Below are positions 16,359 through 17,502 of a stretch of DNA of 37,915 bases, piece by piece. Both the position numbers and the translations under genes were made by a program. This DNA comes from Thioalkalivibrio sp. (lineage in GTDB: Bacteria > Pseudomonadota > Gammaproteobacteria > Ectothiorhodospirales > Ectothiorhodospiraceae): assembly GCA_011389655.1 (NCBI GenBank), contig JAABTX010000024.1, positions 1 through 37,915 of the forward strand, read 5' to 3'. Numbering within the stretch: position 1 is the stretch's first letter; each line of letters opens with the position of its first letter. Below the pieces are notes generated by a model. That model did not search any database. It worked only from the letters and a program-made list of their open reading frames with translations, and had not been told where the DNA came from.

Positions 16359-17033
16359 TCACGTCCGGGCGAGCACGCGAACCAGCGGTTCGGGCAGCAC
16401 AGGCGCGGCTTCGGTCGGGCATTCCAGCAATTCCGCCAGCCGCGTCTCCAGCCTCGCCGCGACCCGTTGCGGGTCGGCCTGCACACCGAGGCATTGCATT
16501 GAGGTAACGGCCAGCCCCGGATAGCCGCAGGCATCGATGCGCTCGAATGCCGCGAGGCCCGGACCCACGTTCAGCGATAGCCCGTGCATGCTGAATCCGT
16601 GCCGCACCCGCAGGCCCAGCGCGGCGATCTTCGCGCCGTCCACGTAGACACCGGGCGCATCCGAGCGGGCCTCGGCCGGAATGCCCAATTCCGCGAGGCT
16701 GTCGATCACGACCTGCTGCAGCAGATCCACCAGAGCGCGTACGCCGAGACGATGGCGGCGCAGATCCAGCAGCGTGTACAGCACGATCTGGCCGGGGCCG
16801 TGAAAGGTCACCTGCCCGCCCCGGTCCACCCGGATCACCGGTATCGCCCCGGGCGCCCGCAGGTGGCCGGGGCGCGCATTGCGGCCGAGGGTGAAGACGG
16901 GCGGGTGCTCCACCCTCCAGAGCTCGTCGGGCGTTGCCTGCGCGCGCTCGTTCAGCTGCAGCTGCATCGCCCGCCATACCGGCACGTACGGCTGCCGGCC
17001 GAGCCGGTAACAGCGCAGCGGCGGGCAGGTCAC
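16359..17033 (-). CDS. lipB: octanoyl-[acyl-carrier-protein]-protein N-octanoyltransferase
   Basis: LipB moves octanoate from acyl carrier protein to lipoyl domains, the step before LipA. Family motifs are VEHPPVFTLGRNA, RGGQVTFHGPGQIVLYTLLDL and GAKIAALGLRVRHGFSMHGLSLNV with the active-site Lys, and the catalytic Cys in DACGYPGL. The GTG at 17033 gives 224 residues beginning close to where other LipB proteins begin. The ATG at 17066 would add 11 residues, the first several encoded by an inverted repeat belonging to the adjacent mobile element. Neither start has a clear ribosome-binding site, so the N-terminus is uncertain. It is the last gene of the cell-wall operon. Confidence 0.93.
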   Translation of the reverse strand: MTCPPLRCYRLGRQPYVPVWRAMQLQLNERAQATPDELWRVEHPPVFTLGRNARPGHLRAPGAIPVIRVDRGGQVTFHGPGQIVLYTLLDLRRHRLGVRALVDLLQQVVIDSLAELGIPAEARSDAPGVYVDGAKIAALGLRVRHGFSMHGLSLNVGPGLAAFERIDACGYPGLAVTSMQCLGVQADPQRVAARLETRLAELLECPTEAAPVLPEPLVRVLART

Positions 17034-17050: not shown

Positions 17051-17098
17051 ACCGAACTTTCCGCATGGGCCACTAGTGGGCCATGCGGAAAGTTCGGT
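17051..17098. repeat. 48-bp near-perfect palindrome centred on CTAG
   Basis: Arms 17051-17072 and 17077-17098 pair at 21 of 22 positions around CTAG; the only mismatch is 17069 with 17080. The left arm is a third, solitary copy of the terminal repeat of the neighbouring element, and the right arm is that element's own left end. In the ybeD-lipB transcript it would form a long hairpin containing the lipB ATG at 17066. Confidence 0.92.
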
Positions 17099-17236
17099 GA
17101 CTATGGAGCACAGCCAGAAGGGCCGGAGCAAGGAGGGCAAGTGCAGGAATAGTGGGCCTATTTCAAACTTGCCCAACGCAGCGCCGGCGCTTCTCGCGAA
17201 GCGATCTGGTACTGAACCTTCCGCATGGCCCACTAG
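17073..17236. mobile_element. MITE-like element with terminal inverted repeats and CTAG ends
   Basis: The segment begins CTAGTGGGCCATGCGGAA and ends with its inverse. The 22-base repeats at 17077-17098 and 17211-17232 differ at two positions. CTAG stands at both ends (17073-17076 and 17233-17236) and looks like a 4-base target duplication. The interior has no credible gene but has hairpins at 17135-17174 and 17188-17203. At 164 bases without a transposase it fits a non-autonomous miniature element. CTAG-type duplications are known for IS5-related elements, but assigning a parent family is inference. It separates ybeD from lipB. Confidence 0.75.
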
Positions 17237-17502
17237 AGCACCATCCGGACGCCGGGACAGGCGCCCAGTGCCCGGTACAGGCCATCCAGCTGCTCCTGGC
17301 TGGTTGCGGTCAGGGTGATGGTCACTCCGACGTAGTTGCCGGCCGACGACTCCCGGTGCACCACATCCACCGTGTCGGGTTCCGGCACGTGCCCGGCGAT
17401 GCAGGCCTCCACCGCCTCGAGGAATTCCTCGTGGGCCTCGCCCATCACCTTGACCGGAAAGCGGCAGGGGAAGTCGAGCAGGGTGTCGCGATCATCCGTC
17501 AT
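17233..17502 (-). CDS. ybeD: YbeD family (DUF493) protein
   Basis: This 89-residue DUF493 protein is a small ACT-like fold protein found next to lipB in many gammaproteobacteria; its function is not firmly known. The pattern DFPCRFPVKVMGEA, GNYVGVTITLTATSQEQLDGLYRAL and the ending VRMVL are as in E. coli YbeD. The ATG at 17502 overlaps the TGA of dat (ATGA). Its TAG stop at 17233-17235 is part of the CTAG at the edge of the MITE-like element, yet the protein ends at the normal family position, so the coding sequence was not shortened. Confidence 0.92.
   Translation of the reverse strand: MTDDRDTLLDFPCRFPVKVMGEAHEEFLEAVEACIAGHVPEPDTVDVVHRESSAGNYVGVTITLTATSQEQLDGLYRALGACPGVRMVL

Follow-up and report, generated by a model that had tools for sequence, protein, structure and literature searches.

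The ends of the Correia/NEMIS elements of Neisseria start with TAGTGG. These elements are TA-flanked hairpin MITEs of 107–155 bp that are found in transcripts; RUP of Streptococcus pneumoniae (107 bp), which goes with IS630-Spn1, is a multicopy, hairpin-forming, IS630-ended MITE inserted at TA; and ERIC/IRU of Enterobacteriaceae (127 bp) is a fixed-length imperfect palindrome that lies at TA and is co-transcribed (PMC2229807). IS630 of Shigella sonnei prefers the TA within 5'-CTAG-3' as its target and duplicates this TA (Tenzen and Ohtsubo 1991, as cited in PMC2170065), and CTAG is given as an IS630 target elsewhere as well (PMC6811581). MITEs of the IS5 group with CTAG or YTAA duplications also exist (PMC3189936).

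The element analyzed here shares with IS630 of S. sonnei the TA target in 5'-CTAG-3', the (most likely) TA duplication and related ends (TAGTG...), but is only 158 bp long and lacks a transposase, whereas IS630 is ~1.1–1.2 kb and encodes one. It resembles RUP in kind but differs from it in sequence and phylum, and no common structured core is reported for RUP; Correia/NEMIS, which it resembles in the first six bases of the ends, appears to have another interior. With the IS5-type MITEPsy1 of Pseudomonas syringae it has in common the CTAG site, the small size and the lack of an ORF, but the 4-bp duplication and the ends of MITEPsy1 are different.

The Element in the ybeD-lipB Gap

The window, i.e., the whole stretch of 37,915 nt from Thioalkalivibrio sp. 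(contig JAABTX010000024.1), contains at 17073–17236 an element of 164 bases counting the CTAG flanks (17073–17076 and 17233–17236). If TA is the duplicated target (see below), the element proper (158 bp, G...C, plus strand in the consensus orientation) extends from 17076 to 17233, between the target-site TA dinucleotides at 17074–17075 and 17234–17235, with C17073 and G17236 belonging to the target DNA. It starts with the terminal inverted repeat GTGGGCCATGCGGAAAGTTCGGT (17076–17098, plus strand) and ends with its counterpart on the minus strand (17211–17233). The earlier note had described a MITE-like element with CTAG at both ends, 22-base inverted repeats with two mismatches and a hairpin-forming interior without a transposase. 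This description is borne out, the repeats being slightly better than stated (26 bases matched with 2 mismatches, 1 of these in the first 22). The element has no long ORF of its own. The whole 164 nt folds into a single hairpin on the plus strand (–99.8 kcal/mol, z –9.7; equaled by 0 of 200 shuffled sequences), and the minus-strand fold has –90.9 kcal/mol. The window contains 3 occurrences of the 17-base end motif, compared to 0.04 expected.

The element abuts the end of ybeD (17233–17502, minus strand). The stop codon TAG of this gene is read at 17235–17233, where its G is complementary to the last base of the element, so that, as the earlier note had it, the right CTAG supplies the stop and the YbeD protein still ends in VRMVL. 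In the two closest relatives at this junction, the site is empty, with 5 nt between the ybeD stop and the lipB start: CTC-TAG-TCCGC-GTG in one (G016, ybeD 93% identical) and CTC-TAG-CCCGC-GTG in the other (G003). Empty sites in orthologous gaps, which the earlier note had proposed to look for, thus exist, and, judging by these sequences, the native ybeD stop is CTC-TAG and was the target of insertion. The element was found at the ybeD-lipB junction in none of the relatives examined.

An older head-to-head end, overlooked in the earlier note, directly adjoins the left CTAG. This 22-base remnant of another copy (17051–17072, minus strand) accounts for a 48-base palindrome (96% palindromic) centered on that CTAG and, together with the present element, for a ybeD-lipB gap of ~200 nt vs 5 nt in the relatives. 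The gene lipB, taken from the GTG start that is conserved in relatives, occupies 16359–17033 (minus strand), and its frame is open up to an ATG within the remnant (17066–17064). This new in-frame ATG may be used instead of the GTG at 17033; a start there would extend the N-terminus of LipB by MRKVRSDPPAR. Hence only half of the claim that neither protein was harmed is shown, the half that concerns YbeD; lipB now has a widened gap in front of it and, perhaps, a new start.

Other, unrelated repeats are present in the ybeD-lipB gaps of two relatives, a GTCATTGCGAGC-type repeat and a long AT-rich palindrome (L065 of G008 and L089 of G031), and this junction therefore appears to be a place of repeated invasion. 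A native ybeD 3' end that resembles the end of the element (GTCCGCATGGTCCTCTAG, G015:C40:33401-33416) was set aside as probably a chance similarity.

Copies and Distribution

Copies beyond the window, which the earlier note had anticipated, are numerous. The own genome yields 41 BLAST pieces in ~25 places, including intact 164-bp copies at unrelated sites, and many contigs of this assembly end inside the element. Among the congeneric genomes (species), 16 of 29 contain the element and the other 13 do not; beyond the genus, the same sample gave a single marginal match by DNA similarity, and the named copies come from Thioalkalivibrio. The length, counting the CTAG flanks, is exactly 164 bp in 89 of 110 copies, and CTAG is present at both ends in 60 of the 110. 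Neither plasmids searched with the whole element, nor viral contigs searched with the end motif, nor plasmids and phages searched with the end and IS-end queries gave a match, or, in the last case, a convincing one. The element end GGGCCATGCGG turned up in no relevant open-access paper.

Given the very stable hairpin in an intercistronic gap, the segment could be conceived as a non-mobile part of the ybeD-lipB operon with a fixed regulatory role (a terminator, attenuator or mRNA stabilizer). However, the gap lacks the element in all relatives examined, dozens of copies reside elsewhere, and the copies are oriented both ways with respect to the upstream gene (24:14, not significant). We regard this explanation as extremely unlikely, and refuted as an account of the origin of the element; a secondary effect on expression is possible.

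At one locus (L033, G014), the element is flanked on both sides by one sequence in inverted orientation, apparently the rlpA 3' end, and one of these flanks also occurs in L048 (G014), which reflects either inversion through the palindrome or a chimera in MAG assembly. A lone element end is located just upstream of a nadK-like gene in a Thiohalomonas MAG (L126:6619). A contig of an Ignavibacteriales MAG (L139) ends in 36 bp of the Thioalkalivibrio element and is probably mis-binned.

Target Duplication and Probable Affiliation with the IS630 Family

The window copy by itself fits a duplication of TA as well as one of CTAG, and the choice between the two was made on other copies. The informative ones are few: L023 has GTAG...CTAC and L177 has ATAG...CTAG. 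These flanks assign the outer base to the target and the inner G/C to the element, and they do not fit a 4-bp duplication. Most likely, then, the duplicated target is the TA inside CTAG, with CTAG as the preferred context. The proposal that the native stop CTCTAG was both targeted and duplicated is accordingly retained for the target and replaced, for the duplication, by TA.

An insertion sequence with matching ends was traced in Reinekea marinisedimentorum DSM 15388, where two pairs of contig ends (C15, C19, C36 and C16) bear this end at CTAG and continue into coding sequence. This IS was read from its two ends (TAGTGGGCC), no full-length IS with these ends being assembled; its right end encodes AKPFKWTKSAEKIIASVERAKKVLPN followed by a stop codon. 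The peptide AKPFKWTKSAEKIIASVERAKKVLPN is 48% identical over 23 aa to the C-terminus of an IS630-family transposase (E 6e-6), which itself matches the IS630 profile and has plasmid relatives annotated as IS630. On this sequence evidence, Reinekea has an autonomous IS630-family element that shares these ends; the IS that the earlier note proposed to look for has thus been recovered as ends, although not as a full-length sequence.

Within the genus, IS630 elements end in C-TA-GTGTCCTTTAACATTAGTTCG and have TAGTG and AGTTCG in common with the MITE at the same offsets; the ends of the intact IS630 elements delimited there nevertheless differ from those of the 164-bp element. The DDE_3 profile (PF13358) detects only an IS630-family fragment in the own genome and matches over the family cut-off in 4 of 30 genomes of the genus. 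No transposase was found among the ORFs beside unpaired element ends in the stretches examined.

The CTAG present at both ends of 60 of the 110 copies, together with the known IS5-group MITEs that have CTAG/YTAA duplications (PMC3189936), might suggest an IS5-group MITE with a 4-bp CTAG (YTAR) duplication, like MITEPsy1; the ends of the element would then be TGGGCC...GGCCCA. We consider this very unlikely, given that L023 and L177 depart from a 4-bp YTAR duplication, that the Reinekea IS, which has these ends, codes for a C-terminus of the IS630 type, and that the IS630 ends of the genus share TAGTG and AGTTCG with the element. The element lacks a transposase, has terminal inverted repeats, is multicopy, shows TA duplication in the few informative copies and an empty site in relatives, and shares its ends with an IS630-family element; from the TA duplication and the shared ends, it is best described as an IS630-ended MITE. 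We put at about 90% the probability that it is a non-autonomous element of the IS630/Tc1-mariner type that was moved in trans into the TA of CTAG, with the stop rebuilt as TAG.

Under this scenario, an IS630-family transposase acting in trans would recognize the ~23-bp ends and move the element into TA, preferentially within 5'-CTAG-3', and insertion would duplicate the TA. At ybeD, a first copy would have entered the CTC-TAG stop and decayed to the 22-bp end, after which a second copy entered the same CTAG. Both the mobilization in trans and this order of events are inferred.

Insertion at Stop Codons

The element starts with G and ends with C, so that TAG is always remade when the target is the TA of a TAA or TAG stop; hits at TAG (or TAA) stops are therefore free of cost for the upstream protein. 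In the sampled stretches of two congeners (L346-L384), CTAG is ~12-fold depleted relative to base composition (104 and 90 seen vs 1179 and 1253 expected) and ~3-fold relative to the trinucleotide expectation. Insertions occupy TAG stops in 38 of 84 cases (45%), compared to 31 of 172 background CTAGs (18%; OR 3.8, p 1e-5), and the bias persists against intergenic CTAGs only (OR 2.7, p 0.002), these p-values being approximate because of the home-made gene finder, the partial use of MAG-contig flanks and ~3 pairs of sites that look orthologous. Stops here are those of predicted genes, and the gene finder overlooks short genes, even ybeD. The background CTAGs come from separate stretches, an earlier background made of the sequence around the elements having been discarded as relics may inflate it. 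Among the copies with intact ends, 20 of 39 are at TAG stops. The insertion bias toward TAG stops is real.

The 2.7- to 3.8-fold excess, the intergenic-only comparison included, could be taken to mean that stop codons are actively sought by the transposition machinery (e.g., by TAG context or translation-coupled access), over and above what CTAG preference and selection produce. This appears unlikely to us: selection suffices, inasmuch as insertion may do harm where an intergenic CTAG serves as a promoter or regulatory site, and stop insertion is automatically silent. The simplest account of the bias is CTAG preference combined with the purging of hits in coding and control regions and the silence of stop insertion. 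Under this account, the strong depletion of CTAG inside genes would leave surviving insertions often at stops and between genes, with purifying selection the likely cause of the bias. Thus, the target choice at CTAG-type stops suggested in the earlier note stands as a bias, and a special strategy is not needed to explain it.

A Structured Core Module

The interior of the window element includes a hairpin module (CAAGGCG...GCAGG...CAA...CAACGC) at 17113–17197, on the plus strand, which scores 94.8 bits. In an alignment of 46 elements that represent several genera, 28 of the 46 pairs are doubly changed with pairing kept, 94.8% of the cells pair, and the covariation score is 0.283 vs 0.139 after shuffling; the observed level is reached in 0 of 500 shuffles. 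Among the non-Watson-Crick cells, G-U exceeds A-C (170 vs 40 in the interior and 65 vs 16 in a wider set), which points to selection on one strand, although the structure was derived from the same strand and many of the cells are related.

According to the first covariance model, built from the inner 85 positions of the element, most ~268-bp elements of Competibacteraceae, Chromatiaceae and others contain two modules. Of the 185 gammaproteobacterial genomes sampled, at least 31 have the module at E <= 1e-6, in some cases in more than 20 copies; the figures for the class are minimum values, since only a limited number of candidates is scored in the genome scan, which gave zero modules for the congener G029 vs many in another module search. 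In that genome, which has no 164-bp copy, the module is embedded in a ~300-bp MITE family with other ends, CTAGGGAAACACTGAT. This is a second MITE family of the genus, with ends CTAGGGAAACACTGATCAATG and two inverted core modules, likewise at CTAG (L364:5486-5788 in G029, with similar places in L346, L348, L356 and L363; ~300 bp where delimited). Elements in the gammaproteobacterial sample are either ~268 bp long, with two modules, or 151–170 bp long, with one; they have several unrelated ends, e.g., TAGTGTCCCTTAACAGAAGTTCG, CTAGTGTCCTGTCACACGTC, CTAGTGTAGTGCGTCACTC and TACTAAGACAAACGATAACAAAGCC, and are mostly flanked by TA or CTAG.

In the wider set of 48 modules, the alignment of which was fitted to the structure, compensatory changes occur in 28 of 29 pairs (score 0.834 vs 0.201 shuffled), and CAAGGCG, GCAGG, CAAG and CAACGC are nearly fixed at mostly unpaired positions. 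A second model, trained without the Thioalkalivibrio 164-bp copies, recovers the window module at 77.9 bits (E 6e-17). Rfam gives no match over the gathering score at 12 module loci, nor at the window. ERIC has AAGGCG at the matching place in a weak covariance-model alignment, but is not a demonstrated relative: at the E. coli ERIC locus (L410), models R1 and R2 reach at most 8.8 bits (E 0.1, not significant).

We favor the interpretation that the core is kept by selection on the folded strand, be it RNA or folded single-stranded DNA. On this view, selection would act on the pairing, the spacing and the unpaired motifs of a conserved hairpin module between the ends. Either the ends were exchanged by recombination around a selected core, or the core is a unit that was captured repeatedly. 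More tentatively, the 85-nt core could function throughout the class as a single-strand structure, most likely as RNA, and serve as a cassette in many gammaproteobacterial MITEs with swapped ends (several of the IS630 type, and others); such a cassette might come in one or two cores with the element length kept nearly fixed (~164 or ~268 bp), an idea that we consider somewhat less likely than not. Protection of upstream mRNA, relief of polarity in operons and a part in transposition are possible roles.

Implications

The element represents a new family within a known type: it is an IS630-ended MITE that, by construction, inserts silently at stops. The target TA plus the terminal G makes TAG, which is the molecular reason why a transposon on a stop codon costs the upstream protein nothing. 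What is new beyond the MITE itself is a strongly covarying, uncatalogued hairpin in small transposons with different ends, across Gammaproteobacteria. The interiors of MITEs are commonly regarded as neutral filler. Here, they appear to bear selected structure, so that the question why ERIC-, NEMIS- and RUP-like elements are folded becomes directly testable.
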